Positions 15,297-39,373 of a stretch of 39,373 nucleotides of DNA are shown here, piece by piece (the first letter of the stretch is position 1; each line of letters opens with the position of its first letter). The DNA is from Peloplasma aerotolerans (GTDB lineage Bacteria > Bacillota_I > Bacilli_A > Acholeplasmatales > Acholeplasmataceae), in contig NZ_JASCXW010000017.1 of assembly GCF_030012175.1 (NCBI RefSeq), positions 1-39,373 of the forward strand. The letters run 5' to 3'. The notes beneath the pieces were generated by a model. The model was not told where the DNA came from and searched no databases. It saw only the letters and a list, made by a program, of their open reading frames with translations. The translations under genes and the position numbers were made by a program.

Positions 15297-15300
15297 TGTT

Positions 15301-15837: not shown

Positions 15838-15867
15838 AAGTCTTCTCCGCTAATATGTTCTTATTTC

Positions 15868-15873: not shown

Positions 15874-15891
15874 CAAAAAAAAAGAGTAAAT

Positions 15892-15916: not shown

Positions 15917-15928
15917 ATGTTTTTCAAA

Positions 15929-16126: not shown

Positions 16127-16159
16127 AAAATACCTACTTTACTTTCATTTATTGTCTCT

Positions 16160-16165
16160 ATTATA
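16160..16165 (-). promoter_or_regulatory. -10 element of the small membrane protein gene
   Basis: TATAAT on the minus strand (plus strand ATTATA), preceded by TTG as at 15868-15873. The 72-nt gap it lies in is the largest inside the array. Confidence 0.4.
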
Positions 16166-16198
16166 CAAGACTTGAATAAATAAAATGTGAATAAAGCA

Positions 16199-16726: not shown

Positions 16727-16734
16727 AGTACTCC

Positions 16735-17256: not shown

Positions 17257-17264
17257 AAGCCCTC

Positions 17265-17723: not shown

Positions 17724-17729
17724 AGCCTC

Positions 17730-18155
17730 CTATTTATTTTTCCATACAAATAAAATATCTTGGTCATCACGTGGTGTTACTTGGGTTGCTCCTGCCTTAC
17801 GATAAAGATTCATTGCTGCATCATTGGTATGATTTGTAATAACAAAAGCATCCCGATAATAACCAGTTTCTAAAGGTTTCAATATATGTTCTAATAGTTT
17901 TGTTGCGACATGTTTTTTTCGGTAATCCTTTAATACGTCAATGGAATAAATAAACAATTGTTTTTCTTTTCCATCTGGTCGATCAAACTCATATCCATAG
18001 ACCATACCAATAACCATTGTCTCATCTAATGCAACATACATAACATTATTTGGTAAATCTAAAAAATCCTGATTAAACGTTTTTTTATCAAAAAATAACT
18101 CAATACTTTGTCTACCATATTCTAGATTCTCTTTTGTAACTTTAACGATTTTCAT
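17730..18155 (-). CDS. GNAT-family N-acetyltransferase, AAC(3)-I-like
   Basis: Acetyltransferase of 141 residues. The layout with an early Phe-rich helix, VMYVALDETMVIGMVYGYEFDRPDGKEKQ, then YSIDVLKDYRKKHVATKLLEHI (motif A with R-K-K-H-V-A) and NDAAMNLYRKAGA near the end resembles the AAC(3)-I/fortimicin acetyltransferase branch. Actual aminoglycoside activity cannot be told from the sequence. AAGGAGT precedes the ATG, which follows the metallopeptidase stop by 1 nt. Confidence 0.78.
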   Translation of the reverse strand: MKIVKVTKENLEYGRQSIELFFDKKTFNQDFLDLPNNVMYVALDETMVIGMVYGYEFDRPDGKEKQLFIYSIDVLKDYRKKHVATKLLEHILKPLETGYYRDAFVITNHTNDAAMNLYRKAGATQVTPRDDQDILFVWKNK

Positions 18156-18156
18156 G

Positions 18157-19236: not shown

Positions 19237-19238
19237 CT

Positions 19239-20426
19239 CTACTTTAATAAGTTTGTTTGTATATCAATTGTATGACAATCATTAAATGTCATAAAACGAT
19301 CGAGACAATTGAGTATATTATTTTTGAGCGTCTTCGTTAACTTAATATGATCTTCAAACCAAATATTTTTAACAAGTAATGTTTTTTCTTTCTTTTGATT
19401 GATCACTTCAATGCGTCCTATAAATTCTGTATTTGAGATAATAGGAAGTACATAATAACCATAAACCCTGTCTTCTTCTTTATTGTATATCTCCCATTTA
19501 TATCGAAAATCAAAAATGGTTTCGGTTAATTTTCTATCCCATATAAAGCCATCTAGTGGAGCAATCAATTCTGTTCTGCCTTCAAATGTTTTTCCACTGA
19601 TGATATCTAATAGAATCTGTTCATCTGAATTTAGAGCATAAAAGAGTTCATTAATGCCTTCAATTTCAATTTCTACAATCTTATCTTCTTTTAACAAAGA
19701 TTGATAAACTTCAGTTCTTTCTTTTGCTCTTAAGCCATGGATAAACAAATAAGCTTCGGTTGGTCTATTCCATAATAGGCCAATTGCTGAAATTCTTCTT
19801 AAAACACGATATTTATAAAATTCCAAATCAGTTTGAAAAGGATCATCTGCTTCATAATCTTCTTTTGGGATATAATCTCTTGCTAATGCATAATACTTAA
19901 TCGTATTTTTTTTATGGTGAACAATTAGTTCACCATGGAAATACATCAATTCGATTGCTGCTTTAGCAATCGATGTTTTATTCCAGTTCCATTCCACTTT
20001 TTGATCATTTGCAAAATCTTTTGAACATACATATCCTTTTTCTTCAATCTTTTTCTTTATCTCTTCCTTCATTTCAGCTAGATGAGGATGGTTTTCTTCT
20101 GTTTCATCATAACGATCTCTAACCCTTTTAAAGTACTTCCAATCATCAATAGATAAGATAGACATCACCTTATCATAATAATCCATAAGCTTTCGATCTT
20201 TATATAATAAATCATATAACATCTCTTTTTTAAAACCTTTAACACGAGATTGCAAAACAAGCTCTGCATTTTTACCACAAACATCAATAGGATCGTATTG
20301 AATGCACCCTACTTCTTTAATGTAATCTAGTGCTCCTTTTTTACCTACATATTTATAATGACCCATGAGGCCTTGCTTTATTAAAATAAACTTTCTAGTC
20401 TGTTCATTGCTTAAATTATATTTCAT
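19239..20426 (-). CDS. YcaQ/AlkZ-type winged-helix DNA glycosylase
   Basis: Predicted HTH_42 (AlkZ/YcaQ superfamily) DNA glycosylase, a family that excises bulky alkyl adducts or unhooks interstrand crosslinks. The N-terminal winged helix is followed by GCIQYDPIDVCGKNAE, where Q43-Y-D45 fits the catalytic QxD motif of the YcaQ branch (AlkZ has QxQ). YDKVMSILSIDDWKYF and HPHLAEM continue the family pattern, and LIAPLDGFIWDRKLTETIFDF is the conserved C-terminal beta-barrel region with the PLD motif. The length of 395 aa is normal. AAAGGATGAT precedes the ATG. YcaQ-type enzymes can protect against azinomycin-like or mustard agents; here the agent is unknown. Confidence 0.83.
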   Translation of the reverse strand: MKYNLSNEQTRKFILIKQGLMGHYKYVGKKGALDYIKEVGCIQYDPIDVCGKNAELVLQSRVKGFKKEMLYDLLYKDRKLMDYYDKVMSILSIDDWKYFKRVRDRYDETEENHPHLAEMKEEIKKKIEEKGYVCSKDFANDQKVEWNWNKTSIAKAAIELMYFHGELIVHHKKNTIKYYALARDYIPKEDYEADDPFQTDLEFYKYRVLRRISAIGLLWNRPTEAYLFIHGLRAKERTEVYQSLLKEDKIVEIEIEGINELFYALNSDEQILLDIISGKTFEGRTELIAPLDGFIWDRKLTETIFDFRYKWEIYNKEEDRVYGYYVLPIISNTEFIGRIEVINQKKEKTLLVKNIWFEDHIKLTKTLKNNILNCLDRFMTFNDCHTIDIQTNLLK

Positions 20427-20437
20427 CTAATCATCCT

Positions 20438-20896
20438 TTATAATGGTTTGACTAACAGTAAGCATGGTGAATCTTTACCCCAAAGCTCTTTAAATGTTTC
20501 AACAGGAATAAACCCTACTGATAAGTAAAAGTCTCTTGTCATCTTATAATAAGGGTCTGGGTGAGATGCATCTAACGTTTTGACTTCAAGGAGTTTGTAA
20601 TGTTTGGCCTTTGCGTATCTAGATGCATAATCTACTAATAACTGACCAATGCCTTTTCTGTGATGTTCTTTTAGAATGCCCATGACATGAATTTCAATCG
20701 TTGATTCATGATGAGGATTAAGTGATAGAAAACCAATGGGTTGTTCATTCTCATAATAAGCGAACATCAGCATATCTTTAACATCATTAATATATTCTAA
20801 ATTCGACTCAGGACGTCCGAACCAATTTGGTAATGCTTCAATGATATGTTTCGTAACATTTTGTTTTAAAGTGGGTTCAAATATTTCTTTAATCAC
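20438..20896 (-). CDS. GNAT-family N-acetyltransferase
   Basis: Single-domain GNAT of 152 residues. PIGFLSLNPHHESTIEIHVMGILKEHHRKGIGQLLVDYASRYA holds beta 4, beta 5 and motif A with the classical R-K-G-I-G pyrophosphate loop; DPYYKMTRDFYLSVGFIPVE is the C-terminal part. It resembles the streptothricin/phosphinothricin-like small-molecule branch by the YxxTRDFYxxxGF segment. The start is GTG at 20896, 8 nt after AAGGAG, and lies inside the end of the DUF998-like gene (8-bp overlap). Confidence 0.82.
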   Translation of the reverse strand: MIKEIFEPTLKQNVTKHIIEALPNWFGRPESNLEYINDVKDMLMFAYYENEQPIGFLSLNPHHESTIEIHVMGILKEHHRKGIGQLLVDYASRYAKAKHYKLLEVKTLDASHPDPYYKMTRDFYLSVGFIPVETFKELWGKDSPCLLLVKPL

Positions 20897-21488
20897 TTAT
20901 TATCTCCTTTAAATCATATTTGATTTTAAACTTAATAAAAACATCAATTAAGTATAGAAATGAAATGATGAACATGAATCTTTGAAAAAGTCCACGTAGT
21001 GGTTCAATCGAAAAGATCAGTATCGACAATAGCGTTGATATCAGGACCATGAGTATCGATAGCTGCTTTCTTTTCATACTTTCTTCGATAAAAAACATAC
21101 TCATCGAAAAAACCACAAAAGTAAACCCTACAACCGTTGCGAAAATTGAATGAAGCTGATCTTCAATATTATGTGTAATATAAGATACAACATAAACATG
21201 CTCATGTTTAAAAATGGCAGTTAAAATTAAAGCACCTCCAAATATGATTAATAAAACTTGCTGAACAGGATAATCTTTAAATGATTTTCTTGAATCAAGA
21301 ATAGTAGCAGCACCTAATAATATAAAAACCATATTCATAATCCAAGCATTAGGAGTTAATTGAGCTCCTAAGTGACTTGTTGTATGTTTCAAGATGCTAT
21401 ATCCTTCAAAACTAAAAAAAGGTAAAACAAACATAACAACAATCAATAATGGGTAAATATAGATTAATAACGGTTTATAAGCTTTCAT
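20889..21488 (-). CDS. DUF998-like six-helix membrane protein
   Basis: Integral membrane protein of 199 residues with about six hydrophobic segments. The motif TSHLGAQLTPNAWIMN after the first helix and the layout of the others match DUF998 (Frag1/DRAM-like) proteins, whose function is not established. GGAAG lies 8 nt before the ATG, inside the end of the P-loop kinase gene (14-bp overlap), so translation is coupled on both sides. Confidence 0.78.
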   Translation of the reverse strand: MKAYKPLLIYIYPLLIVVMFVLPFFSFEGYSILKHTTSHLGAQLTPNAWIMNMVFILLGAATILDSRKSFKDYPVQQVLLIIFGGALILTAIFKHEHVYVVSYITHNIEDQLHSIFATVVGFTFVVFSMSMFFIEESMKRKQLSILMVLISTLLSILIFSIEPLRGLFQRFMFIISFLYLIDVFIKFKIKYDLKEIISD

Positions 21489-22029
21489 GATTTAACTTCC
21501 AATCTTTTGTTGATGATATGATGTGTTTTCTTAATAAGTATTGATTAAGACGTCTTCTATTATTAAATATCAAGACTTTATTCGGATAATTATTTTTTAA
21601 AGATTTATATAAGTTTTTTCGTTTTATAGATCTACCTTTATAGATTAACCAAATAAAGAACTCCCAATCAATCTTTTCTGGACAGTTGTTGGTTATGCTT
21701 TCTCTTGACTTGTTTCGATAAATAAATCTTCTTTTAATAGCATTTAGTAAACATGTCATACGATGATAGTTTAAGATATAAATTTGATCAGCTAATGATA
21801 CTCTTAAATCAAAGAAAGCACCTTGATAATTGCCATCGATGACCCATTGCTCATGTGTATTGATAAAATCTAATAAATCTTGATTTCTATCTTCTACCTT
21901 CCGTTGGACCCAATTGGCTTCAAACTGTAAGGTATCGATATAAAGTAAAGGTAGAGCTTCATGTTTTGCTAAAAGTTTTGCTAGTGTTGACTTACCTGAA
22001 CCAGAATAACCAATGACCATAATCCTCAT
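21475..22029 (-). CDS. P-loop nucleotide kinase (FlaR/topology-modulation-like)
   Basis: Small P-loop kinase of 184 residues. Walker A GYSGSGKST lies at residues 7-15, LPLLYIDTLQFEANW follows like the substrate region of FlaR-type proteins, and WVIDGNYQGAFFDLRVSLADQIYIL carries the WVIDGNY motif and Walker B-like strand. RRRFIYRNKSRE-type basic residues form the lid. Homologues are annotated as DNA topology modulation proteins, but the real substrate is unknown. GAGGTGA precedes the ATG. Confidence 0.82.
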   Translation of the reverse strand: MRIMVIGYSGSGKSTLAKLLAKHEALPLLYIDTLQFEANWVQRKVEDRNQDLLDFINTHEQWVIDGNYQGAFFDLRVSLADQIYILNYHRMTCLLNAIKRRFIYRNKSRESITNNCPEKIDWEFFIWLIYKGRSIKRKNLYKSLKNNYPNKVLIFNNRRRLNQYLLRKHIISSTKDWKLNHESL

Positions 22030-22074
22030 CGTGTCACCTCAAACGTATTATAAATAATAAATAGACCAAACCAA

Positions 22075-22980
22075 TCATTTAAAACTAGATTGCTGATACC
22101 AAGAGGGTATAGATTGCCTAAAGTTATCAAAATGAATCATTGTCTTTCTACAAATATCCATCATAACATGAACTTCATCTATACCAAATGGTTCAGCCCA
22201 TTTGATAGAGTATAATGCTGAATGTGCACAATATATAACAAATATTTCCCAAAAGTCATTGGGTATATGATCATTGAAATATGCTTCAATTTGACCGATA
22301 CAAAAAGGAATGCTAACTTTTGTGCCAAAACTTTCCAACTTATAAAACTCTTCATAGGGGTCACCAATTTCCCAACGATTGAAATCAATCACACCAATAT
22401 TTTGATCAGGTGTTAAAATCAAGTTTCCTGGATGGAAATCTCCATGCAAATAAACAGGAGGTTTTGTCCATATTTGGTCAATATGATCCTTAAGAAACTT
22501 TAAAGCTATTTCATCACCATCAATTCTTAGTTGTGAAGTTTCGTATAACTCAATCTGTTTTTTCTTCTTAGGAATTTTTGTTGTTTGTGGTATTTCATCA
22601 TCAGGAAGAGGAATACTATGGATAGCTTTTAAAATGGCACCTGCTTGACGACCAAGTGCATACTGCTTACTGATATCAAGCTTGGGTAATACATCATCAA
22701 GGTCTTGACCTTCTACCCAAGTTAGTAACATATAGACTTCTTGATGGTTATTAAACCATCCAAAATCAAGAGCTTTTGACATATGAATATCTAGTTTTGA
22801 GAACTTGGCAATCATCTCAAACTCTTTTTTCTTCTTATCAAAAGCTTCTTTCGCTGAAGTTCTTAACAATAGCTTTTCACCGTTGATTGTCTCAATATAA
22901 TACTTTGTATCTCTTGACCATCCACGCTCGATTTTTTTGATTCGTTGCCATGTTTCATGGCCTTTGATATCTTCAAACAT
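22075..22980 (-). CDS. Aminoglycoside phosphotransferase (APH) family kinase
   Basis: Small-molecule kinase with a protein-kinase-like fold. VYLHGDFHPGNLIL contains the catalytic loop (D181, N186), and GVIDFNRWEIGDP holds the Mg-binding D199. The N-lobe includes LLLRTSAKEAFDKKKKEFE with the ATP lysine region. At 301 aa the length fits APH(3')/homoserine-kinase-like enzymes, and the loop sequence resembles putative antibiotic kinases of Firmicutes. The substrate is unknown. TGGAGG precedes the ATG. It follows the DUF3307 gene by 12 nt. Confidence 0.83.
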   Translation of the reverse strand: MFEDIKGHETWQRIKKIERGWSRDTKYYIETINGEKLLLRTSAKEAFDKKKKEFEMIAKFSKLDIHMSKALDFGWFNNHQEVYMLLTWVEGQDLDDVLPKLDISKQYALGRQAGAILKAIHSIPLPDDEIPQTTKIPKKKKQIELYETSQLRIDGDEIALKFLKDHIDQIWTKPPVYLHGDFHPGNLILTPDQNIGVIDFNRWEIGDPYEEFYKLESFGTKVSIPFCIGQIEAYFNDHIPNDFWEIFVIYCAHSALYSIKWAEPFGIDEVHVMMDICRKTMIHFDNFRQSIPSWYQQSSFK

Positions 22981-22992
22981 GATGCCTCCAAA

Positions 22993-23787
22993 TTAGATAT
23001 TTTGAAATAAAACGAAGATAAAATAATAAGTAAAAATAGTATATAGAATGCTAAACATGGTTCCTATAATAAAATACTCACCAAACTTTGTGACTTCTAA
23101 GGTTTTAAATCTAGCAATTGATTTTGCTGCTAGGATTAATCCAATCGTCATATAACTACCGACAATGAGTGAAATCATTAAAAGAATTCTTTCAAGAATA
23201 CCAATCGTTCGGCCAGCTTTCTGGTTTGAACTAAACACATGAAATCCATGTTCCTTGGCTTCATCAACATCTTCTTGAGATGGCTTATACTTTCCTAATA
23301 GCTCTTTAAAAAACACATTGCCAGTTTTTCCTATGAGTAAGAATGCTAAAACATATTGTAAGACTGAAAAATAAGTACTATCTGTTAAAAAATAATTTCC
23401 TAAGTTGGTTAAAGTAAAATTGAAGATAATATAAAGACCTAATAATATCAAAATAACAACATGCAATAATTGATCGATGAAGAAGAGATAAGGCCTTTTG
23501 TCTTCATTTGTTTTTTGATAAAGTTTAACTTTAATCAAATCAATCACGCCATGACTTAATCCTGCAATTAAAAAGATAATGATATCGAGCCATTGGTTAG
23601 GTATATAGACTAAAAATATTAAAAATGTACAAATGATGTAAATCAAGGTATGTTTAAAGAGCCTACTTTTAAATATAGTCTTTATTGATAAAACTTCTGC
23701 TAATTTTTCATCAGAAGCTTTTTCTGATTGAAAGTAAAAATCAACTAAGACATGAATAATTAGTAGAAAAAACATTAAAAACATCAT
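22993..23787 (-). CDS. DUF3307 membrane protein (SatD partner)
   Basis: Membrane protein of 264 residues with about seven hydrophobic segments. The start LLIIHVLVDFYFQSEKASDEK matches the DUF3307 signature (H-x-x-x-D-F-x-x-Q), and HVFSSNQKAGRTIGILERIL is a conserved cytosolic loop. In many Firmicutes this family is encoded next to SatD; its function is not settled. The ATG overlaps the satD stop (ATGA) with GGGAGGG upstream, so the two are co-translated. Confidence 0.8.
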   Translation of the reverse strand: MMFLMFFLLIIHVLVDFYFQSEKASDEKLAEVLSIKTIFKSRLFKHTLIYIICTFLIFLVYIPNQWLDIIIFLIAGLSHGVIDLIKVKLYQKTNEDKRPYLFFIDQLLHVVILILLGLYIIFNFTLTNLGNYFLTDSTYFSVLQYVLAFLLIGKTGNVFFKELLGKYKPSQEDVDEAKEHGFHVFSSNQKAGRTIGILERILLMISLIVGSYMTIGLILAAKSIARFKTLEVTKFGEYFIIGTMFSILYTIFTYYFIFVLFQNI

Positions 23788-26581: not shown

Positions 26582-27511
26582 TTATACGTAAGATGTAATG
26601 ATTGACATTTTGCCAATCAATTGAATATGATTAACATTAGCTGTTACAATAAAATGATCACCTTTTTGAACTGGATTACCATTAACCTGTCCATAACCAT
26701 CAATAATGCTCATCAGTCTAAAACGATCATTTTCACGATTAAAGTTTGAATTGATATCCCACTTTTCGACTGTAAAAAAATCATTATGAACAAATCTTGT
26801 GATCGAAGTATCCCCTAAATCAAAATATTTAATGCGAGGTTTAACATCTAAATGAGGGATTGTACTAACTTCGATACTTTCTTTAAGATGTAGTTCTCTT
26901 TGATTCCCTTGTTCGTCTTTTCTATCATAGTCATAAAGTCGATAAGTCGTATCAGATGATTGTTGGGTTTCTAATATTAATAAACCCTTTCCTAAAGCAT
27001 GAATCGTTCCAGACGGAACATAGATAAAATCACCTTTTTTAACATGCTTTTTAATGAGTAGGTCATCCCACTGATTTTTTTTAATCATTTCCATAAACTC
27101 AGTTTTACTGTTAGCTCGGTGACCATAGATGATATAAGCATCTTGTTTTGCATCTAAGACATACCAACATTCAGTTTTACCCAAATCATCAGCAAACCTT
27201 TTTGCATATTGGTCATTAGGATGCACCTGAACACTTAAATCGTCATTAGCATCAAGTATTTTGGTCATTAAAGGAAATTTTTTTGAGTTATGGTAGTTGA
27301 ATAGCTTTCTTTCTTTTGCATAAACATCACTTAATGTTCTATCCTTAAACTTTCCATTGATAATTCTACAATCCCCATTCGGATGTGCGGAAATCGCCCA
27401 GCATTCCCCAGTTTTTGGGTCTGGTATCGTATAACCAAATTCGGTTTGTAGTGCGTTACCGCCCCAAATACGTTGCTTAAAAATGGGTTCTAAAAATAAT
27501 ATGTCGTTCAT
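26582..27511 (-). CDS. manA: Mannose-6-phosphate isomerase, class I
   Basis: Interconverts mannose 6-phosphate and fructose 6-phosphate. ILFLEPIFKQRIWGG is the family start. The zinc ligands are all present, counted from the ATG: Q95 and H97 in SVQVHPND, E114 in GKTECWYVLD and H171 in VPSGTIHALG. The C-terminal cupin part is intact and the length (309 aa) is normal for the short Firmicute type. The ATG at 27511 lies 5 nt after the GGTGA of AGGTGAG; the GTG at 27520 is inside that site. Terminators on both sides indicate its own transcript, next to the glycan operon, which also encodes a second isomerase-like domain. Confidence 0.93.
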   Translation of the reverse strand: MNDILFLEPIFKQRIWGGNALQTEFGYTIPDPKTGECWAISAHPNGDCRIINGKFKDRTLSDVYAKERKLFNYHNSKKFPLMTKILDANDDLSVQVHPNDQYAKRFADDLGKTECWYVLDAKQDAYIIYGHRANSKTEFMEMIKKNQWDDLLIKKHVKKGDFIYVPSGTIHALGKGLLILETQQSSDTTYRLYDYDRKDEQGNQRELHLKESIEVSTIPHLDVKPRIKYFDLGDTSITRFVHNDFFTVEKWDINSNFNRENDRFRLMSIIDGYGQVNGNPVQKGDHFIVTANVNHIQLIGKMSIITSYV

Positions 27512-27544
27512 TATACTCACCTACTTAAAAATATTATACCATGT

Positions 27545-29992: not shown

Positions 29993-30604
29993 TCAATTCC
30001 CTTCTTCATCCTCAATACTTCTAAATTGCATTAAATAAGGTTCAAATAATTTGTTTAAGTGAAAACTAACTAAAATACCATAAAAACCAATACCGATTAA
30101 AATCATCATCTCATGAACAAAAACAATTAGTAAAACAACAAAAGCTAAACTACCGATTAATTTAAAATTCGTCCACAAATTCATATTTGACAACAATAAA
30201 ACATTTTTAAGTAATTGCCGATTGGTTTCTGTCTTGAATCTTGAAATCACTGGAAAAACAAATATCGTAAACATTAAGAGCTGATATCCCCCAACAATGC
30301 CAATAATTAACAAAACCATTTGATCTGTATTGATTGCATAATTAAACATCATATATAAAGGAATACCAACTGCTAGAATGGATAACCAAACCAATGTGCT
30401 TATTACAAAATTTTCTTTAAAACTTTGAATAAATTGATGAAGCACATTGGTTGGTTCATTCTTTTTTAAAATTTGAAATGTGACAGAAAACATTGCTGTT
30501 GTTGCTGCCCCTAGTGTAATGAGTATGCCTAAAAAACTTACTAACATCCATAGTAAATTAACAAAAACGATATCAGTTGTTTTTCTAAAAAGTTCTTTAA
30601 GCAT
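29993..30604 (-). CDS. YesL/DUF624-like membrane protein
   Basis: Membrane protein of 203 residues with about five hydrophobic segments. The start LFRKTTDIVFVNLLWMLVSFLGILITLGAATTAMF is the DUF624 signature seen in YesL, a protein often encoded with LplABC/YtcQ-type sugar ABC transporters in Bacillus. Its role is unknown; a link with sugar uptake is by association. The ribosome site is weak, so translation may depend on coupling with the preceding gene, which ends 18 nt before. Confidence 0.8.
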   Translation of the reverse strand: MLKELFRKTTDIVFVNLLWMLVSFLGILITLGAATTAMFSVTFQILKKNEPTNVLHQFIQSFKENFVISTLVWLSILAVGIPLYMMFNYAINTDQMVLLIIGIVGGYQLLMFTIFVFPVISRFKTETNRQLLKNVLLLSNMNLWTNFKLIGSLAFVVLLIVFVHEMMILIGIGFYGILVSFHLNKLFEPYLMQFRSIEDEEGN

Positions 30605-30622: not shown

Positions 30623-31447
30623 TTATTTTTTAAGTTTTAAAACTAAGAATACACCACCAGCAATAACTGCTACTGCACCTACAATAATCCCTACAAGTAA
30701 ACCCACGTTAGTTGCTTGACCAACAACAGTAAATGAGTCGTTTTCAACGAAAATCACTTTACCTGTGCCATCACCATCAACTGCATTTGGATCGTAATGT
30801 CTTAATTCTTCATATTCGCCATCACCGATAGTTACCGTGTAATTAGCTAATGCAGAAATATCAGCTTTTGTTACAAAACCAGCAAGATCTGCTTCATCAT
30901 AAATGTCATTCCAAATGCCATCAATTGCCCAATCTAGTGATGCTTCAACGATTGCTCTTGATTCTTTGAAAGTAAGCGTTCTAGTTAAACCACCAGTTAC
31001 TTCTAATGTTGGTTTTTCATCAGCATCAAAATCTGACCAAGATAAATTAGGTGATAAGTTAACAAGTTGTTCGTATTTATCTAAAAAGTCATCAAAGCTT
31101 GAAAAATCAAAGCTCATCTTGAAATAACGATGATAACCAGCAACTTCTGGATCATGAACAGTCATAAAGCTTGGTGCATTCGCTTCTAGCCATGCTTGAA
31201 TAGCAATCACGCCACCATCAACATGCTTATCATTTAAGACAGCACCTTTACCTTCAGTTCCATCTGGATCATCAGGATTTGTTATTGGTGTTGTGGATAA
31301 TAAATCATCCATGACATCAATAATAATCACTCTAGTTCCTGAACCGTCTGCATTAAAATGTGTTTCTACACCAACTTCTGCTGGCCAACAAGCAGATAAT
31401 ACTAATGCTAGGACAGCCAATACTAAAATCGAAAATACTTTTCTCAT
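30623..31447 (-). CDS. Lipoprotein with additional C-terminal membrane helix
   Basis: Exported protein of 274 residues. The N-terminal signal ends in a lipobox LSAC (C20), and a second hydrophobic segment of about 25 residues (NVGLLVGIIVGAVAVIAGGV) near the C-terminus is followed by KLKK, so both ends would be held in the membrane and the acidic middle domain would be outside. VGVETHFNADGSGTRVIIIDV after the cysteine resembles the DUF3153/LppM-type extracellular domain; I am not certain of that. It sits between the sugar permease and the YesL-like gene, which suggests a role in sugar binding or in organising the transporter. AGGGAG precedes the ATG. Confidence 0.75.
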   Translation of the reverse strand: MRKVFSILVLAVLALVLSACWPAEVGVETHFNADGSGTRVIIIDVMDDLLSTTPITNPDDPDGTEGKGAVLNDKHVDGGVIAIQAWLEANAPSFMTVHDPEVAGYHRYFKMSFDFSSFDDFLDKYEQLVNLSPNLSWSDFDADEKPTLEVTGGLTRTLTFKESRAIVEASLDWAIDGIWNDIYDEADLAGFVTKADISALANYTVTIGDGEYEELRHYDPNAVDGDGTGKVIFVENDSFTVVGQATNVGLLVGIIVGAVAVIAGGVFLVLKLKK

Positions 31448-31471: not shown

Positions 31472-32386
31472 TTATGTTTCGTCGCCTAAATAAACAACAT
31501 ATTTGTTTAAGCGTAGTGCCAATACCGTAATAATGAGTACGATGACAAGTAAAATCCATGCCATAGCGCTTGCCATACCCATTGCGCGATCAACCATCAT
31601 TTTGTCAAATAAATAATATGCGTAGTAATAAGTCGATCTTGAAGGTCCTCCTGAGGTCATAATATATGCAATCGTAAAGACTTGGAATCCACCAATTAAT
31701 CCCATAATGAAGTTAAAGAATATTGAAGGTGTCATCAGTGGTAATGTAATATAAAATGTTTTTTTAATCCAATTTGCTCCATCGACTTCTGCTGATTCAT
31801 ATAATGATGTAGGGATATCTTGCATTTGTGCAAGATAGATCACCATGGATCCACCAGCTGTCCATAACCCCATGATAATGAGTGTCATCTTGGATGTAGA
31901 AGCTGCTTGATGCCACCTTAGTGGCTCCATATTTAGCAATCTATAAATAGGTGCTAATACTTCATTAATCAAACCAAAACTTGGTTGAAACAGCCATAAC
32001 CACAATAAACTCATCGCGACAATACTAACAACATTAGGTAAGTAGAACAATGTTCTAAAAGCACTCATACCTCTAATTTTGTTATTAAGAAGTAATGCAA
32101 GAGCAACACCGACAACAATACCTAATGGTATAGCTATAACGACATGATAGAACGTATTATATAAAGATTGCCAAAACAAATTATCATTTGTAAATAAAAT
32201 CCGATAATTTTCAAATCCAATAAATCTTGGAAGTGAAATCATATTATATGTTGTAAAACTAATATAAAATGAAGCAAGAATTGGAAATGCACCAAAAATA
32301 ATCAGCCCGAACAACCAAGGTGATACGAATAAATATCCCATTCTATTTTCTTTTTTCTTAAGTTGCTTAATCGTGACTGTCTTCAT
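31472..32386 (-). CDS. ABC sugar transporter permease (MalF/UgpA/LplB type)
   Basis: Six-helix permease of a carbohydrate uptake ABC transporter (CUT1). GYLFVSPWLFGLIIF is the typical first helix. The EAA loop reads ESAEVDGANWIKKTFYITLPLMTPS, the contact site for the ATPase. The length (304 aa) fits the MalF-like partner. It pairs with the second permease at 33725-34594 and the binding protein between them. GAGGTAG precedes the ATG, and it follows the binding protein gene by 19 nt. Confidence 0.92.
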   Translation of the reverse strand: MKTVTIKQLKKKENRMGYLFVSPWLFGLIIFGAFPILASFYISFTTYNMISLPRFIGFENYRILFTNDNLFWQSLYNTFYHVVIAIPLGIVVGVALALLLNNKIRGMSAFRTLFYLPNVVSIVAMSLLWLWLFQPSFGLINEVLAPIYRLLNMEPLRWHQAASTSKMTLIIMGLWTAGGSMVIYLAQMQDIPTSLYESAEVDGANWIKKTFYITLPLMTPSIFFNFIMGLIGGFQVFTIAYIMTSGGPSRSTYYYAYYLFDKMMVDRAMGMASAMAWILLVIVLIITVLALRLNKYVVYLGDET

Positions 32387-32405: not shown

Positions 32406-33713
32406 TTAATTGGTTGCTTCGTAATTTGCCTTCTTTTGCAAGTAATTATTTCTTGCTTGTGTTAATGCTTGTTGTGCTGTTAATGTACCATCAAGTGCTT
32501 GTGTGTAATAAGGTTGCCAGTCGTTACCGTGCCATGATGGTGCATATGGAATATAAACTTTATCAGTTGCAAAGTCTACTTGCTCTAACAATGCTTGCAT
32601 AATAGGTTTATCTGCTACATAGGCTTCCATTGCACTAATATGACTCATAATCCAACCATTAACTTCTGCCATTCTCATTTGAACTTCTTCTGACATCATA
32701 TATTTAAGGAATTCAAATGCACCAGCTTTTTTAGCTTCCTCATTCTTACCATTGTCATAGAGTTCTATGGAAAAACCACTACCCCAATTGACATGAATTC
32801 CATCTTCATCTGGGATTGGTATTGGTGCAACTCCATAATTGAAATCAGCACCAGCATTAATGATTTGTTGATATAAACCATCAACTTCAACAATCATTGC
32901 AACGCGTTCGCTTGCAAATGGATTAAGTCCTAATAACTGATTACCTTCACCAAATGCTGTCAGTTGATTTCTAGTGAATTCATTATTAAAATTGATAATC
33001 CATTCTAAGACATCGACATGACCTTGAGTATTTAATGTAGGATTTTGATTTTCATCAAAGAAATCAAGACCAGTTTGCCATAACCATCCATGATATGTAG
33101 CATTACCATATGTTGGATCGAAACCAATTCTTGTAATTTGATTTTGGGTATTCACTTCGTCAAACATCTTAGCAATCGTTTTTAATTCACTCCATGTTGT
33201 TGGTACATCTTCAGCGGTTAATCCTTTTTCTGCAAACATATCTAAGTTATAATATAACGCTCTTGTTGTTGCAGTAAACGGTAATGCATAAAGTTGTCCA
33301 TTATATGTTGCAAAATCTTTTTGAGACTGTCTAAATTCATTTAAGTCGATATTGTTATCTGACTCATCATTTGCAATAAGTTCGCTGATGTTATATAAAA
33401 CACCACTTGATGCTCTTGCTTCAACATCATCAATCGTTGATAAGCCTAAGCTAGGTGCGGTTCTTGAAGATACAGCAATATTGATTTTGTCCCAATAATC
33501 CCAAAACGAGAATCCAGTCCCTCTAACAAAGTACTCTTCTTGACTATTATTAAAGTCAGTAATGATACTTCTCATGCCTGAATATGATTCGCTACCTACT
33601 GGAGACATATGCCAAAACTCAATGACAGTTCGATCTCCAACATCTTCACCTTGACATGATGCTATAAAGACTAAACTAAATGCAATAACCATCCATAGTA
33701 ATATTTTTTTCAT
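32406..33713 (-). CDS. ABC sugar transporter solute-binding lipoprotein
   Basis: Extracellular binding protein of the CUT1 family (435 aa). The signal ends at a lipobox with C20 (FIASCQ). The mature part opens TVIEFWHMSPVGSESYSGMRSIITDFN, a typical family-1 binding-protein start, and contains LYALPFTATTRALYYNLDMF and AFEFLKYMMSEEVQ, conserved hinge and C-terminal segments. Several exposed aromatics (WLWQTG, APSWHGNDWQPYY) would stack on a saccharide. It is encoded between the two permeases, not at the front of the operon as is usual. AGGAGG precedes the ATG. Confidence 0.92.
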   Translation of the reverse strand: MKKILLWMVIAFSLVFIASCQGEDVGDRTVIEFWHMSPVGSESYSGMRSIITDFNNSQEEYFVRGTGFSFWDYWDKINIAVSSRTAPSLGLSTIDDVEARASSGVLYNISELIANDESDNNIDLNEFRQSQKDFATYNGQLYALPFTATTRALYYNLDMFAEKGLTAEDVPTTWSELKTIAKMFDEVNTQNQITRIGFDPTYGNATYHGWLWQTGLDFFDENQNPTLNTQGHVDVLEWIINFNNEFTRNQLTAFGEGNQLLGLNPFASERVAMIVEVDGLYQQIINAGADFNYGVAPIPIPDEDGIHVNWGSGFSIELYDNGKNEEAKKAGAFEFLKYMMSEEVQMRMAEVNGWIMSHISAMEAYVADKPIMQALLEQVDFATDKVYIPYAPSWHGNDWQPYYTQALDGTLTAQQALTQARNNYLQKKANYEATN

Positions 33714-33724
33714 TTTTAACCCTC

Positions 33725-34594
33725 CTATCCTTTTATTCCGGTAAATGTTATACCTTCAATAAATGATTTTTGTGTAAAGAAGAACAAAACTAATGTCGGT
33801 AACATAATGAGGAGTGCTGCAGCCATCATCAGATCGAAACGCCCTCCATACTGCATTTGAAATGCTCTTAAACCTAAAGCTAATGTCCAATGATCTGGAT
33901 TGCTTAAGAAAATCAATGGACCAAAATAATCATTCCATGTTCCCATAAATGTAAATAGTGCTACGGTAATTAATGCAGGTTTACAAAGAGGTAACATTAT
34001 TTTTAAGAAGATCTGAATATGCGTTGCACCATCTATAATTGCACTTTCAGATAATTCTTTTGGAATACCTTTGAAAAACTGTCTTAATAAGAAAATATAA
34101 AATGCTGCACCACCACCAAAGAAAGCGGGTACAATTAATGGTAATCTCGTTCCTAACCATCCAATTTGTGCGTACATAATATAAGTTGGAATCAAGATAA
34201 CTTGAATTGGGATCATCATGGTAGCAAGCATGACTAAAAACCACTTATCTCTACCTTTCCAATTAAGCTTCGCAAATGCATATGCTGCAGTTGTTGCAGA
34301 AAATAGTGTCCCTACTAAAACTAAAACAACAATTATTAAACTATTTTTTAAGTACATTAAGAAAGGTAATGCAGTGACTGCAGTTACGAAATTACCCCAT
34401 TGAGGCGTTTGTGGGAAAAAGACTGATGTCCCTTGTAAAAGTTCTTGAGGTGTTTTTAGTGCGGTAAAAAGCATCCATAAAAATGGGAATATAAACCCAA
34501 AACTAGCTGCAGTTAAAACAATATACAATATTCCATTTTTAACGAATTTTCTTCTTCTTTTTGTCCACCAAGGCTTTTTAATCGTTTCAGTCAT
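33725..34594 (-). CDS. ABC sugar transporter permease (MalG/AraQ/LplC type)
   Basis: Second permease of the transporter, six helices. The EAA loop reads ESAIIDGATHIQIFLKIMLPLCKPA, and WNDYFGPLIFL with a C-terminal KSFIEGITFTGIKG is typical of the MalG-like partner. I chose the ATG at 34594, 5 nt after GAGGGA; the TTG at 34606 lies in that ribosome site. No ATP-binding subunit is encoded in the operon, so an MsmX-like shared ATPase elsewhere must energise it (inference). Confidence 0.92.
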   Translation of the reverse strand: MTETIKKPWWTKRRRKFVKNGILYIVLTAASFGFIFPFLWMLFTALKTPQELLQGTSVFFPQTPQWGNFVTAVTALPFLMYLKNSLIIVVLVLVGTLFSATTAAYAFAKLNWKGRDKWFLVMLATMMIPIQVILIPTYIMYAQIGWLGTRLPLIVPAFFGGGAAFYIFLLRQFFKGIPKELSESAIIDGATHIQIFLKIMLPLCKPALITVALFTFMGTWNDYFGPLIFLSNPDHWTLALGLRAFQMQYGGRFDLMMAAALLIMLPTLVLFFFTQKSFIEGITFTGIKG

Positions 34595-34612
34595 ATAATC
34601 CCTCAATATTTC

Positions 34613-36406
34613 TTATTTTGTCGTATCTTTTAATCTAATAAATCTTGGTCTATAAACTAAGTTATTTGACATATTATGATCAAAATTATAAGTATTTGTA
34701 TTATAAGAAACTAATACATCTGTACTCATCGATAAATGAGGATGAGCTTTTGCATTATAAGTGTAAGTTGTGCTCTTATATATTTCTTGTTCAGGAGTTA
34801 CATAAATCTTTTGTGGCTTAGAGAATGGTCCCCAAGGACTTTCACCAATTGCATAGGATACGTATTTCGTATTGACATCATAGGTAAAGACTGCTAAATA
34901 CTTATCTTTATATAAACCATCAAGAATAGGTGAGACGCTCATTTCACATGAAATATGTGATAAGAGTCCTACACTCTTAAAGATATCAGGTTGAAAATCG
35001 TTTCCATCGAAAAATGTCCAATCATCGAAATACTCAAAGTTTTCTTCTAAAACTCGGGCAAGAACCATTTCACGTAAACCCATCGTTGTTTTATAACCAT
35101 AAATATAAATGAAACCATCAGGGTTCTTAGAACCTGCTTTTCTGGTGCTAGCCATAATAGCAGCTCCGAACAACCATTGACTTTCTTCGTTTTCAACAAG
35201 TAATGGTGCCATCTTTTGTGTTGCTTTTTCATAATTAATGTCTTTATTTTCAATAGGTGTTTTAAATAAAGCAACACCTTTGACACAAAACTGAAGACCT
35301 TCAGGTTGATTGAGGTCGCTATTGATGACCATGGGTATGAAATATAGATGATCACCGATAATAACGCCATCTTGTAGCCATATCCATGAATGTTCAGGAT
35401 TTATTAATAGGGTTGATGAAGCATCAACTTTAAGATCTCTATATTGTTGATCCAAATTATAAAACTTAACTTGATTCAGTGCGAATAGTCCTTCAGTAAA
35501 GGTGTCATCATTATGATTGCCTACACCTGGCTTCGTTGGAACGATGAGTTTAATAAAGCGATGACTTTCGTGAATCTCAATGGTTTCATGGTTACCTAAG
35601 TACTCACTTTGACTTAAATTAATCTTTTTGATAAATGTGTAGGTCTCACCATTGAGTGATCCATGAATCTCTACTTCTTTTAAACCACGTTTTGCTAAAT
35701 ACTTTTCTTCATTGCTAAAATAATTGTAAAAATCTATATGTGTGATGTTTCTAATCTTATATAAATCAAAAACGATTTCTAAATCCTTTGGATAATATCC
35801 ACTAACATAACCAGGATTTTCATCTTTACGATCGTAACGAATGATATTTTGAATAACAGTACCAGCATTATCGTATTGAGGATCCATACTATAAAACCCT
35901 GCTACAGAACCGTCGTCTTTAAAATTTACCTTGAATTCTATTTTTTGGTCTTGATAGTAACCTAAACTATTGTTAGGCATAAGATGTGGTTGAAATCTTT
36001 GATTGGTTTTAAGATCTGATGTTCCAACAAATGTATCACCAAAAACAAACAATGTTTTCATATCTTGTTTTTGGTCAAACTGATCATTTCCATCCGTTAG
36101 GTTAAACGAATAAATACCATCGCCACCTGACCATCCTTGGAATCTTAGAAACTTATTTGTCATTTCATCATCTTTTGAGGCAATGTATCCTTGTCCACAA
36201 TAGATGTTTAAGTCCACCATTTCTTTTGAGTCGATCATCAGACGGTTTGCATATTTTGAATCCATGTTCAACTCATCATCAATAAAATATTCAACTTTAT
36301 TGAATTTTGCTTGATCAAAATCTGCGATTGGATAAATACCATCCAATAAGATTTCATTTAAACCATCTTCTATTTGAACACTTTTAATTAAATCTAAATA
36401 TTTCAT
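34613..36406 (-). CDS. Cytoplasmic beta-propeller glycosidase-like protein (DUF4185/DUF5005-like)
   Basis: Protein of 597 residues without signal peptide, so it acts inside the cell. It is a paralogue of the lipoprotein encoded upstream. Shared blocks are GWSGGDGIYSFNLTDG (91-106), FGDTFVG (D124), NNSLGY (145-150), WIWLQDG (D346), GFIYIYGYK (431-439), SCEMSV (E488), TYNAKAHPHLS (549-559) and YRPRFIRL. This resembles the five-bladed propeller families DUF4185/DUF5005, related in fold to GH32/43/68 enzymes; D124, D346 and E488 are the natural candidates for catalytic acids, which is inference. Residues about 195-318 look like an inserted discoidin (F5/8 C) module. AAGGAG precedes the ATG. Confidence 0.75.
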   Translation of the reverse strand: MKYLDLIKSVQIEDGLNEILLDGIYPIADFDQAKFNKVEYFIDDELNMDSKYANRLMIDSKEMVDLNIYCGQGYIASKDDEMTNKFLRFQGWSGGDGIYSFNLTDGNDQFDQKQDMKTLFVFGDTFVGTSDLKTNQRFQPHLMPNNSLGYYQDQKIEFKVNFKDDGSVAGFYSMDPQYDNAGTVIQNIIRYDRKDENPGYVSGYYPKDLEIVFDLYKIRNITHIDFYNYFSNEEKYLAKRGLKEVEIHGSLNGETYTFIKKINLSQSEYLGNHETIEIHESHRFIKLIVPTKPGVGNHNDDTFTEGLFALNQVKFYNLDQQYRDLKVDASSTLLINPEHSWIWLQDGVIIGDHLYFIPMVINSDLNQPEGLQFCVKGVALFKTPIENKDINYEKATQKMAPLLVENEESQWLFGAAIMASTRKAGSKNPDGFIYIYGYKTTMGLREMVLARVLEENFEYFDDWTFFDGNDFQPDIFKSVGLLSHISCEMSVSPILDGLYKDKYLAVFTYDVNTKYVSYAIGESPWGPFSKPQKIYVTPEQEIYKSTTYTYNAKAHPHLSMSTDVLVSYNTNTYNFDHNMSNNLVYRPRFIRLKDTTK

Positions 36407-36417
36407 CTTAATCTCCT

Positions 36418-38487
36418 TTATTCATTAACTTCTATGATTCTAATAAATCTTGGATAATAAATATTTGCGTCACTTAATGCACCTGTAATCAGTGTATTCA
36501 CATTATAAGAAATCAAATAATTTCCTGGTTCGCTTAGGACTGGATGCATTTTAGCATTATAAGTAAATCCACCTCTAAGTGTCTGAGATTCAGTTGTTTG
36601 ATAGATTTGAACATAGTCTCCGAATTGTCCATATGGTGTATCAGATAATGCATAACTAATTCTTCCACTTGTTGAATTTTCCATAACAACTAACATATAT
36701 TTTCCAGCAAATTTTCCTGATTCAATATAAGTTACACTGAGTTCTGGTGAAACGCCATCTTTAAGTGTTTTTGCATTTTCAATTAAGCTTGTCCAGTTTT
36801 CACCATCAAAATATGTCCATTGATTAAAGTTTTCAATATCTTCAGGTAAGAATCTACCAACAACTAATTTTCTACCATCAAGATCCTTATAGCCATAAAT
36901 ATAGATATATCCATCTACATGAGTATTGTTCATCAAACCAGCACCGAAGTACATCACACCACTATCACTTGTTTTCACCATCAATGGTGCATTTAAATAG
37001 GTTGCGTTTTGATGATCGAATTTTTCATCAACAATAGGCATCTTAATCATTGAAACATTGTGAACTTTGAAGATTTCGCCATCATCTTTGATCAAAATTG
37101 GGAATACATAAAATGTATCGTTTAAGACAATGCCATCTTGAAGCCATAGTCTTGCGCTGTTTTCATTAGGTTCAATTGATGTTTCATATGATCCCTCAAT
37201 TTCACCGAATAAAAAGTTGTCTTGTTCATCAAAGATCATGATTTTTCCTAAGCCAGTATAAGATTGACTATAACTTTCTAAGACTGTTAATTTTAAATAT
37301 CTAGCATCAACTTGATTAAATGATATTTCAATCGTATAAGGTTCTTGAGCTGACCCTAAGGCCTTTTCGATATCAAAAGTGTCGATAGTTGTCCAAGTTG
37401 TTTTGTCTAAGCTTGAACTTAACTCAAACTTTTTAACACCATAGTTAGGATTTGCATTATAATTCCAAATGTTGAGTGAACCTAATTGATGAGTACTCAT
37501 AAGATCAATAGTCAGTTCAGTTTCAATTTCGTCACTTAGCCACATTGCACCTTCTTTTTGGTTTGTTAATAGTGCATTTTTAGATCGAGTGATTGATAAA
37601 CCTTCGTTATCCAATAAATTTCTTGGTCTGGATCCAATATAAGGTGTTGGCTCAAAAATCGATTTTGGTGTGATATCAGCCATATTGTAATCAAATGTGA
37701 ATGCTTGATCAAAAGGTAGATGTTGATTCATGTAGCCTAAAGAGTTATTAATGATAATACCACTTTGACGTAGATGATTATGTGGATAGACTTTCCCAAC
37801 AAATGTGTCACTAAAGATGAAACCAACTTGATCTTTTTCTGCACCAATACGTGTATCACCATTGGTCAAGTTAAATGAAAATATACCATCTGCACCAGTC
37901 CAGCCTTCATATCTTAAAAACGTTTTAGACCATGCATCATCTTCTTGAACAATAATACCTGGTGATAATTTGAAATGGATATCTTGAATACCTTTAACCT
38001 GATCATCGGCTGCAAACGTAATTCTAACACTTTTTGCCATAGTACCTCCAAAATTGATTGTATTTGTGACTTCTGATAATTCATAATTTGTTTGGTATCT
38101 CGAATAGTTATATAGGTTTAATGATGTATCGATTGAGATAGTTGGTATTGTTTCAGCTCGATCACCAACATATGATGTAAAAATCATCATATCTATTGGA
38201 TAAACAGCATCAAAAATCAAAATCAATTGATGAGTTTTGATTAAAGAAGTTTCAAAAAATATAGGATTAATATCAATTGGTTTCCAATAATTGATGAAGT
38301 TGTCCAAATTGCCTTTTGTTGTTGAATGTGGAATATTAATATGAGTTACTGGTATTTTTTCTTGTGCGGTTTGAGTAAAAACTGTACCATCATCCTCAAT
38401 AATAATTTCTTCTTCTTGTTCAGGTCTAGTACAAGATGATAAAACAAGAAACAACACTAGGATAAACATAAACACTATCTTTTTCAT
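36418..38487 (-). CDS. Extracellular lipoprotein, beta-propeller glycosidase-like with discoidin-like insert
   Basis: Exported protein of 689 residues. The lipobox LSSC puts the lipidated cysteine at C19, followed by an acidic spacer. Residues about 45-175 form an N-terminal beta domain. The paralogous core then begins: GWTGADGIFSFNLTNG (195-210), FSDTFVG (D227), NNSLGY (247-252), LWLQDG (D451), GYIYIYGYK (526-534), SPELSV (E582), TYNAKMHPVLS (642-652) and YYPRFIRI. Residues about 285-422 look like a discoidin (F5/8 C) carbohydrate-binding insert. It is probably a surface glycan-acting enzyme that supplies the neighbouring importer; activity is not proven. It is the first gene after the promoter; the ribosome site GGTGA is weak. 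Confidence 0.75.
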   Translation of the reverse strand: MKKIVFMFILVLFLVLSSCTRPEQEEEIIIEDDGTVFTQTAQEKIPVTHINIPHSTTKGNLDNFINYWKPIDINPIFFETSLIKTHQLILIFDAVYPIDMMIFTSYVGDRAETIPTISIDTSLNLYNYSRYQTNYELSEVTNTINFGGTMAKSVRITFAADDQVKGIQDIHFKLSPGIIVQEDDAWSKTFLRYEGWTGADGIFSFNLTNGDTRIGAEKDQVGFIFSDTFVGKVYPHNHLRQSGIIINNSLGYMNQHLPFDQAFTFDYNMADITPKSIFEPTPYIGSRPRNLLDNEGLSITRSKNALLTNQKEGAMWLSDEIETELTIDLMSTHQLGSLNIWNYNANPNYGVKKFELSSSLDKTTWTTIDTFDIEKALGSAQEPYTIEISFNQVDARYLKLTVLESYSQSYTGLGKIMIFDEQDNFLFGEIEGSYETSIEPNENSARLWLQDGIVLNDTFYVFPILIKDDGEIFKVHNVSMIKMPIVDEKFDHQNATYLNAPLMVKTSDSGVMYFGAGLMNNTHVDGYIYIYGYKDLDGRKLVVGRFLPEDIENFNQWTYFDGENWTSLIENAKTLKDGVSPELSVTYIESGKFAGKYMLVVMENSTSGRISYALSDTPYGQFGDYVQIYQTTESQTLRGGFTYNAKMHPVLSEPGNYLISYNVNTLITGALSDANIYYPRFIRIIEVNE

Positions 38488-38501: not shown

Positions 38502-38515
38502 TGCAAGCGTTTTCT
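38502..38515 (-). promoter_or_regulatory. cre-like operator at the start of the glycan operon
   Basis: On the minus strand the site reads AGAAAACGCTTGCA, matching the strong cre form TGAAAACGCTTTCA at 12 of 14 positions. It lies 7-20 bp downstream of the -10 element, over the expected transcription start, the usual position for CcpA roadblock repression; a LacI-family repressor would also fit. No CcpA or LacI gene is in the window. Confidence 0.6.
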
Positions 38516-38521: not shown

Positions 38522-38550
38522 AATATATCATAGAAACCTTCAATTTACAA
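38522..38550 (-). promoter_or_regulatory. Promoter of the glycan operon
   Basis: On the minus strand TTGTAA (38550-38545) and TATATT (38527-38522) are separated by exactly 17 bp, 35 nt before the lipoprotein ATG. Confidence 0.6.
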
Positions 38551-38591
38551 TACATTTATAATACATTTATAATATTTTTACTACATTACAA
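38551..38591 (-). repeat. Tandem 11-bp direct repeats just upstream of the promoter
   Basis: On the minus strand TTATAAATGTA occurs twice without a gap (38572-38562 and 38561-38551), and a related TTGTAAATTGA follows in phase over the -35 box. A further copy, TTGTAATGTA, lies at 38591-38582. The 11-bp period puts the copies on nearly the same DNA face, suitable for a regulator such as the neighbouring GntR protein. Confidence 0.5.
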
Positions 38592-38592: not shown

Positions 38593-38624
38593 AAAAAAAA
38601 CCGTAAGTTTTTACTTCTTACGGT
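38593..38624 (-). terminator. Intrinsic terminator after the GntR gene
   Basis: On the minus strand ACCGTAAG pairs perfectly with CTTACGGT around a 9-nt loop and is followed by a run of seven or eight T. The stem includes the last codons, and the loop the stop codon, of the regulator gene. Confidence 0.85.
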
Positions 38625-39342
38625 AATAAAGTCTAGTTCGATACTCATAATGTGCAGCATTATAAAATGTTTCTGTATACTCAATTAAACGATTTGATTC
38701 ATCGTAACTGTATCTTTTTCTTTTGAGTTGTGGCGAATCATCTTGAATTTGAAGAATATTTCGTATCGTTTTAGGAGCTAAAACAGCACTTACATATTCT
38801 TCAAAAACATTGAAAAATATATTTTGTGAGGAAAGATACTTATATAATGATCCCATTAAAAAGGATTCAGTGTTCGGCAATTTTACAACAGGCAGTAAAT
38901 ATGTATCAGAATATAAAATTGGGATCACCGTTCCTCTAACACGGCGAAGGTTATATAGCATATCACCTTCATTAATGTTAAAAATACTGGCAAGTAACTT
39001 ATCTGCTTCAATTTCCTTCAACTCTGATTCCATCGTTTTGCTAGGCAATCCCATTTCATTCATTTCATTTGTAAAACTACGAATCATTGTAAAATTTGAC
39101 AATGAAGATTTATTTTTATAAACGGTTGTTCCAAAACCTGCACGCCTAGTTAAATATTGCTCTTGGACTAACTTTGAGATTGCTGTTCGAATGGTTACTC
39201 GACTAACACCATAGTGTTGAGCGAGTTCTTTTTCACTTGGAATTAAATCTCCTTCGTTCCATTCTCCAGTTTCAATCTTTTGTCTAAGGCTATTTCTTAC
39301 TTGAAGATAAAACGGCATTTTATCAGCTAAGTCAATCGACAT
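38611..39342 (-). CDS. GntR-family transcriptional regulator with UTRA domain
   Basis: Likely local regulator of the glycan operon. The N-terminal winged helix (about residues 8-72) has QKIETGEWNEGDLIPSEKELAQHYGVSRVTIR, the GntR signature. The C-terminal ~150 residues form a UTRA effector domain (HutC/FarR branch), a fold that binds sugar phosphates or similar small molecules. LKRKRYSYDESNRLIEYTETFYNA is the typical UTRA end. I chose the ATG at 39342, 5 nt after GGTGA; the GTG at 39351 lies in that ribosome site. It has its own terminator, so it is transcribed apart from the operon; its promoter lies at or beyond the window end. Confidence 0.9.
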   Translation of the reverse strand: MSIDLADKMPFYLQVRNSLRQKIETGEWNEGDLIPSEKELAQHYGVSRVTIRTAISKLVQEQYLTRRAGFGTTVYKNKSSLSNFTMIRSFTNEMNEMGLPSKTMESELKEIEADKLLASIFNINEGDMLYNLRRVRGTVIPILYSDTYLLPVVKLPNTESFLMGSLYKYLSSQNIFFNVFEEYVSAVLAPKTIRNILQIQDDSPQLKRKRYSYDESNRLIEYTETFYNAAHYEYRTRLYYRKK

Positions 39343-39373
39343 ATCAATCACCTACACTTTGTATTTTACTTAA

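Follow-up and report, generated by a model that had tools for sequence, protein, structure and literature searches.

Results

Two paralogues, one outside and one inside, in an importer operon

The window analysed here is the whole 39,373-nucleotide stretch of DNA from Peloplasma aerotolerans. Near its right-hand end, on the reverse strand, two adjacent genes of one family lie within an operon for an ATP-binding cassette (ABC) importer. The first encodes an extracellular lipoprotein of 689 amino acids (aa), here termed LIPO, and the second a cytosolic paralogue of 597 aa, here termed CYTO (Table 1). A genome search identified these as the sole two copies of the family in the 2.04-Mb genome of the source organism. 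The proteins are 31% identical over 553 aa (BLASTP, E=4e-70) and carry their motifs in identical order, confirming a preliminary description of the region in which the neighbouring genes had been said to have a common ordered motif set. At its N-terminus LIPO has a hydrophobic stretch and a lipobox, LSSC, at Cys19. CYTO is preceded by a good ribosome-binding site (aaaggagat); a mis-called start hiding a signal peptide was considered and ruled out, since only 5 codons are open upstream of its ATG (open frame of 602 aa versus 597 aa). The N-terminus is strongly hydrophobic in every recovered LIPO orthologue for which it is complete, and in none of the CYTO orthologues. The earlier assignment of a lipoprotein signal to one protein and of none to the other was thus borne out by the lipobox and the extent of the CYTO frame, and one secreted and one signal-less homologue within one importer operon make up an outside/inside pair from the same family.

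Table 1. Positions in the window of the paralogue pair, its candidate active-site residues, its upstream region and the other genes of the operon.
Feature	Position	Strand	Basis or comment
GntR/UTRA regulator	38611..39351	-	Same place in Acholeplasmataceae and several other families
Overlapping direct repeats of ~11 bp (ATAAATGTATT type), operator-like	38545..38580	-	In 7 orthologous loci
cre-like catabolite-repression site AGAAAACGCTTGCA	38502..38515	-	Between -10 box and LIPO start
LIPO, extracellular lipoprotein paralogue, 689 aa	36418..38487	-	Signal peptide and lipobox; Pfam, AlphaFold2 model
LIPO C19, lipobox cysteine (LSSC)	38431..38433	-	Translation; kept across orthologues
LIPO D200, probable nucleophile (EndoMA1 D33 equivalent)	37888..37890	-	Invariant; 17-residue spacing in SHORT, 4hbs alignment
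LIPO D227, probable acid/base (EndoMA1 D51)	37807..37809	-	Alignment, conservation
LIPO discoidin insert (F5/8 type C, CBM32-like), ~aa 285-425	37213..37635	-	Pfam, AlphaFold2 model
LIPO D451 (W-[LI]-Q-D), invariant clade-specific acid	37135..37137	-	Possible counterpart in 4hbs WAGD, weak
LIPO E582, third active-site acid (EndoMA1 E243), by homology	36742..36744	-	Alignment, conservation
CYTO, cytosolic paralogue, 597 aa	34613..36406	-	Open frame, ribosome-binding site, Pfam, AlphaFold2 model
CYTO D96, probable nucleophile	36119..36121	-	Conservation, 4hbs alignment, spacing in SHORT
CYTO D124, probable acid/base	36035..36037	-	Alignment, conservation
CYTO discoidin insert, ~aa 180-318	35453..35869	-	Pfam, AlphaFold2 model
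CYTO D346, invariant clade-specific acid	35369..35371	-	Conservation
CYTO E488, third active-site acid (EndoMA1 E243), by homology	34943..34945	-	Alignment, conservation
CUT1-type ABC permease (MalG-like)	33725..34606	-	Pfam
Solute-binding lipoprotein (SBP_bac_8)	32406..33713	-	Top PDB match MBP1 (4r9f)
CUT1-type ABC permease (MalF/UgpA-like)	31472..32386	-	Pfam
Small lipoprotein, C-terminal membrane helix, no family	30623..31447	-	Kept in operon
DUF624 (YesL-type) membrane protein	29993..30604	-	
PMI2, phosphomannose-isomerase-like, 580 aa	28273..30015	-	ManA 1qwr match E=9.5e-12, aa 233-467
GDSL esterase, N-terminal hydrophobic segment	27571..28269	-	
Type I mannose-6-phosphate isomerase (ManA)	26582..27520	-	

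Domains and predicted fold

AlphaFold2 models, built from an input of 17-18 orthologous and paralogous rows, reached a predicted local distance difference test score (pLDDT) of 89.6 for CYTO and 86.2 for LIPO. Strand order is consistent with five blades in both models, and both proteins are predicted to be five-bladed beta-propellers. In LIPO an N-terminal beta-sandwich (~aa 45-172) is followed by a propeller resembling those of glycoside hydrolase (GH) family 183 and DUF5005 and split by a discoidin domain; CYTO, in which a signal is impossible, begins with a small beta domain and continues with a LIPO-type propeller and insert. In the models each insert forms a beta-sandwich domain that separates blade 1 from blade 2, and the discoidin profile PF00754 matched LIPO with E=8e-14, over the cut-off, and CYTO with E=0.0013, under it. 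Both the fold and the similar placement of a discoidin-like insert, as put forward in the preliminary description, agree with these models, with the PF00754 matches and with the structural matches found by Foldseek.

For both models the top Foldseek match was 4hbs, the DUF5005 protein BACOVA_04882 of Bacteroides ovatus. The GH183 enzyme EndoMA1 (8ic1/8hhv) followed directly for CYTO and ranked third and fourth for LIPO, and AraH2 of Mycobacterium tuberculosis (8an0) was among the CYTO matches; the models and the matches to 8ic1, 8hhv and 8an0 are thus in keeping with the five-bladed catalytic propeller of GH183. Sequence profiles gave the same order (4hbs, 1.8e-8; EndoMA1, 2.6e-4), and hhalign paired the family with canonical Bacilli DUF4185 proteins at 98-99% probability. 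The DUF4185 profile (PF13810) scored 47.7 bits with LIPO, over the cut-off of 39.5, and 37.6 bits with CYTO, just under it; these matches cover only positions ~169-291 of 309. CYTO reached 24.8 bits with DUF5005 (PF16396) against a cut-off of 29.6, and LIPO gave no DUF5005 match at E<=1. The family had at first been taken for GH32/43-like, an assignment that did not hold: no GH43 or GH32 Pfam match was obtained at E<=1, and GH43, GH32 and GH68 were absent from the top 50 structures of either model. Membership of GH32, GH43 or GH68 was rejected, and the nearest characterised relative is instead the GH183 (DUF4185) endo-D-arabinanase, together with DUF5005.

As the best structural and sequence match, 4HBS has in common with the pair the GW-G-GDG...D[TS]F motif, the C-terminal HP-LS and Y-PRF/PYF motifs and probably a blade-2 W..D; unlike the pair, no discoidin insert is seen in its 416-aa chain. 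Members of GH183/DUF4185 (EndoMA1 of Microbacterium arabinogalactanolyticum, PMC10509167; DgGH4185a/b and Rv3707c, PMC10115798) likewise combine a five-bladed propeller with a blade-1 Asp/Asp and an E-SV Glu. The pair differs from them in forming a separate clade, in a ~10-residue loop insertion in blade 1, in the discoidin domain after blade 1 and in the additional invariant D346.

Candidate active-site residues

In EndoMA1, D33 is the nucleophile, D51 the acid/base and E243 a third essential acid (PMC10509167). Alignment to the PDB chains places these residues in TDLG, GDTF and SEMSV, and the D51N mutant entry 8ic1 reads GNTF. CYTO D124 aligns with D51, and CYTO E488, in the E-SV motif, with E243, the third Glu expected of GH183. 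CYTO D96 (G-[GA]-D-G) was matched to D33 by motif and lies 28 residues before D124; the corresponding spacing is 17 in three short sister proteins that lack the loop insertion (SHORT), 17-18 in canonical GH183 and 18 in 4hbs. By homology, the catalytic set is probably D96/D124/E488 in CYTO, equivalent to D200/D227/E582 in LIPO.

The column pairs D227/D124, D451/D346 and E582/E488 are exact in the LIPO/CYTO alignment and invariant wherever the column is present (25 lipoprotein and 28-29 cytosolic orthologues). These were the acids singled out in the preliminary description, and their conservation stands; D346, however, is not a GH183 catalytic residue, and D96 had been missed. After mapping on EndoMA1, the candidate set D124/D346/E488 was replaced by D96/D124/E488. 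Also invariant, and absent from the earlier list, are D200/D96, R240/R137 and R545/R451, with D525/D430 and R539/R445 nearly so among LIPO and CYTO orthologues.

At the position of D346 canonical GH183 has no acid, its motif there being IPTGG. This fourth acid, specific to the DUF5005 side, could point to another glycan-bond chemistry (esterase, deacetylase or lyase), as in some other five-bladed propellers, and a GalNAc deacetylase is a structural neighbour of EndoMA1 (PMC10509167). Such a chemistry is nevertheless highly improbable here: all GH183 catalytic acids are kept, the operon already encodes a GDSL esterase, and neither model had a deacetylase among its 50 best structural matches. 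A GalNAc-deacetylase-like function was rejected on that last ground. The conservation also bears on the suggestion that one or both proteins are non-enzymatic, LIPO capturing glycan and CYTO sensing a ligand or acting as a scaffold. Binding without catalysis is common among propellers that carry discoidin domains, and no clade member has a measured activity; yet both clades keep D96, D124, D346 and E488 without exception despite ~31% overall identity, and a binding protein and a GntR sensor are already provided by the operon, making this a very unlikely account of the pair.

Evolution and distribution

A tree of 68 sequences was computed, including 28 CYTO, 25 LIPO and 10 canonical DUF4185 proteins as well as SHORT. 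A single branch set apart the CYTO sequences (support 93), and another the LIPO sequences (support 99). The canonical DUF4185 proteins were separate with support of 100, with CYTO, LIPO and SHORT opposite them across long branches; grouping of the pair with characterised or canonical GH183 was not observed in this tree. Since CYTO and LIPO each form one clade, it is well supported that a single old duplication gave rise to two sister clades that have long been co-inherited. Chance similarity and recent duplication were rejected, given the BLASTP E value and two clades that span families.

A protein query matched 18 of 88 family genomes, and a profile 19 of 160 order genomes. Nearly all matching genomes encode both members side by side; single or partial copies occur in G030 and G076, where the matches are fragments. 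Three class genomes (G220, G281 and G307) matched weakly and were left out of the clade. The pair was also present in a wider Bacilli sample, and its operon is conserved across Acholeplasmataceae, Izemoplasma and other Bacilli. Some lineages (L130, L136) carry, as a third copy, a short protein lacking the discoidin domain, and L140/L141 have a different set. The SHORT sister clade, which has no discoidin insert (L136:3112-4095, L130:12743-13963, L140:4960-8251, L139:9374-10438), is sometimes represented by a third gene beside the pair; one SHORT member in L140 is a lipoprotein whose discoidin-like domains are N-terminal instead.

Operon and upstream region

The operon order GntR, LIPO, CYTO, permease, solute-binding protein, permease, small lipoprotein, DUF624, PMI2, GDSL esterase, ManA is kept. 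In relatives a BadF-type kinase gene is usually divergent from the operon or nearby; it is not seen in the window because the contig ends just after GntR. In nearly all relatives the small lipoprotein gene lies between the permease and DUF624 genes. PMI2 has an additional N-terminal part of ~230 aa and is conserved in the operon beside an ordinary ManA.

Upstream of LIPO, the cre-like site is the sole exact consensus match in the 39-kb window, where 0.04 would be expected, and is kept in orthologues; both this site and the ATGTATT-type direct repeats are conserved in seven loci. The genome encodes a CcpA-like LacI-family protein whose score is below the curated CcpA cut-off. Judged from these elements, the region resembles a promoter for an operon of sugar catabolism.

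The gene content bears on whether the pair are true endo-D-arabinanases, the outer enzyme attacking the D-arabinan in cell walls, actinobacterial or otherwise, and its inner partner trimming imported arabino-oligosaccharides. The fold and three catalytic acids in common with EndoMA1 would suit this role, as would canonical GH183 loci in Bacilli that show a like outside/inside layout with an importer. The Microbacterium GH183 locus resembles the operon in including an SBP_bac_8 importer, but its GH183 enzymes act outside the cell and its intracellular enzymes are GH172 and GH116 (PMC10509167), whereas the inside enzyme here is a paralogue and the operon has no D-arabinose genes. It lacks the GH172 (DUF2961), FucI and FGGY genes of canonical Bacilli GH183 loci, with phosphomannose isomerases in their place, and on this basis D-arabinan utilisation was rejected. 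The long, fully supported branches to canonical DUF4185, a Pfam match spanning only ~120 of 309 positions and the lack of clear conservation of R198 and the blade-2 substrate residues likewise make an arabinanase pair improbable.

Substrate class

Two phosphomannose-isomerase-type proteins, ManA and PMI2, are encoded in the operon. In five relatives of family f16 (L130, L132, L134, L135 and L142) a GH38-type protein of ~810 aa is encoded directly upstream of LIPO; this protein was found in 7 of 19 clade-positive genomes versus 2 of 376 other class genomes, counts uncorrected for kinship. In G042 the pair operon lies inside a locus syntenic with the own-genome contig C34 (L155:8673-19454, L156:1-19100). 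The C34 locus encodes a GH85 endoglucosaminidase lipoprotein (1314 aa), GH125, four GH38-type proteins, GH130 and NagA- and NagB-type proteins, which we take to be a typical N-glycan set. The top PDB match of the solute-binding protein, MBP1 (4r9f), is presumably a mannan-oligosaccharide binder. Because of the isomerase-type pair, the GH38 neighbours, the N-glycan locus of G042 and the solute-binding-protein match, a mannose-containing glycan is our best guess for the substrate class, as far as gene content can indicate it. The C34 locus also encodes a ketohexokinase-like PfkB, and a conserved 705-aa protein that matches no Pfam family above threshold is encoded beside a GH38 gene in two genomes (L155:8673-10790, L012:19042-21159).

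The active site of GH183 is suited to an alpha-furanoside (PMC10509167), and both this and the mannose-type operon would be accommodated if the pair cleaved another furanoside (e.g. galactofuranose or L-arabinofuranose) on a glycan rich in mannose, for instance fungal galactomannan or mannoprotein, leaving the mannan core to GH38-type enzymes. Within the conserved operon, no gene was recognised as serving galactofuranose or arabinose metabolism, and judged from these genes such a furanoside seems rather unlikely.

Proposed pathway

Cleavage of a mannose-containing glycan, outside and then inside, by a GH183/DUF5005-related glycosidase pair remains the reading that we prefer, with about an even chance of being right. 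Transcription would start upstream of the LIPO gene under GntR and catabolite (cre) control. LIPO and CYTO would both be active glycosidases of the retaining type, from an undescribed clade akin to GH183 (DUF4185) and DUF5005. LIPO, tethered outside and equipped with two carbohydrate-binding-like domains, would cut the glycan, the CUT1 ABC importer would take up the fragments, and CYTO would cut the imported oligosaccharide again by the same chemistry. The membrane-anchored GDSL esterase may strip acyl groups, and the BadF-type kinase and the phosphomannose isomerases could feed the released hexose into glycolysis.

Several points weigh against this pathway. The GH183 mechanism does not account for D346. 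The register of D96 with D33 depends on motif spacing and 4hbs; in global hhalign the ~10-residue blade-1 loop causes D96 to be misplaced, and local hhalign stops at the C-terminal half, so that the blade-1 motif is not reached. The mannosidase link is not universal, since 12 of the 19 clade-positive family genomes are without GH38 (kinship again uncorrected). Finally, no activity data were found for any clade member.

Relation to known outside/inside systems

The preliminary description had one enzyme acting on a surface glycan and the other on the imported product, a layout not known to it as described for the family. An importer operon with outside and inside copies was indeed found, and the literature searched yielded no description of such a layout for GH183 or DUF5005, the one paper retrieved for DUF5005 dealing with gut metagenomes; the layout itself, however, is known in GH43 and is present in canonical Bacilli GH183 loci. 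The GH43 arabinanases ABN43A and ABN43B of Bifidobacterium longum subsp. suis are an extracellular/intracellular pair with 41% identity (PMC10970622), and AbnA and AbnB of Geobacillus, likewise extracellular and intracellular, flank a CUT1 importer (PMC4194401). As with LIPO and CYTO, one import locus is served in each case by an outside and an inside enzyme from a single propeller family. These enzymes belong to another family (inverting, acting on L-arabinan), whereas the compartments of LIPO and CYTO correspond to two clades kept together across several bacterial families.

Three canonical Bacilli DUF4185 loci (L144:8388-12002, L145:9904-12463 and L146:4195-15349) form an independent case of the layout, with adjoining lipoprotein and signal-less copies near ABC importer genes. 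In L144, two lipoproteins and one signal-less DUF4185 copy are accompanied by DUF2961, FucI and an FGGY kinase; the mix is similar in L145 and L146, and L145 also encodes DUF2961 (GH172). Unlike the pair, these proteins are full-length DUF4185 without a discoidin insert, and their inside copies are not one clade in the tree.

What is probably new is an anciently duplicated outside/inside pair, likely sugar-cutting, in a GH183/DUF5005-related clade of a wall-less bacterium. More tentatively, and with somewhat less than even confidence, the clade may be a new GH family between GH183 and DUF5005 that cuts a mannose-bearing linkage (probably of N-glycan or mannoprotein) not known for this fold, an early single duplication having produced surface and cytosolic enzymes co-inherited across the groups named above. 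The analysis delimits a coherent, uncharacterised propeller clade, for which the operon is defined, the catalytic residues are predicted, the promoter is conserved and the substrate class can be tested, in bacteria whose glycan diet is poorly known. It also ties the orphan DUF5005 fold to GH183 chemistry. Having arisen in this lineage, the split between outside and inside is met again in canonical GH183 loci, which suggests a general route by which Gram-positive-type cells with ABC importers finish large oligosaccharides inside.

Elsewhere in the window, positions 11696-23787 hold a long run of small co-directional genes with the look of an accessory region, including a GNAT acetyltransferase, AHSA1, an AlkZ-like DNA glycosylase (19239-20426), DUF998 and an APH-family phosphotransferase (22075-22980).

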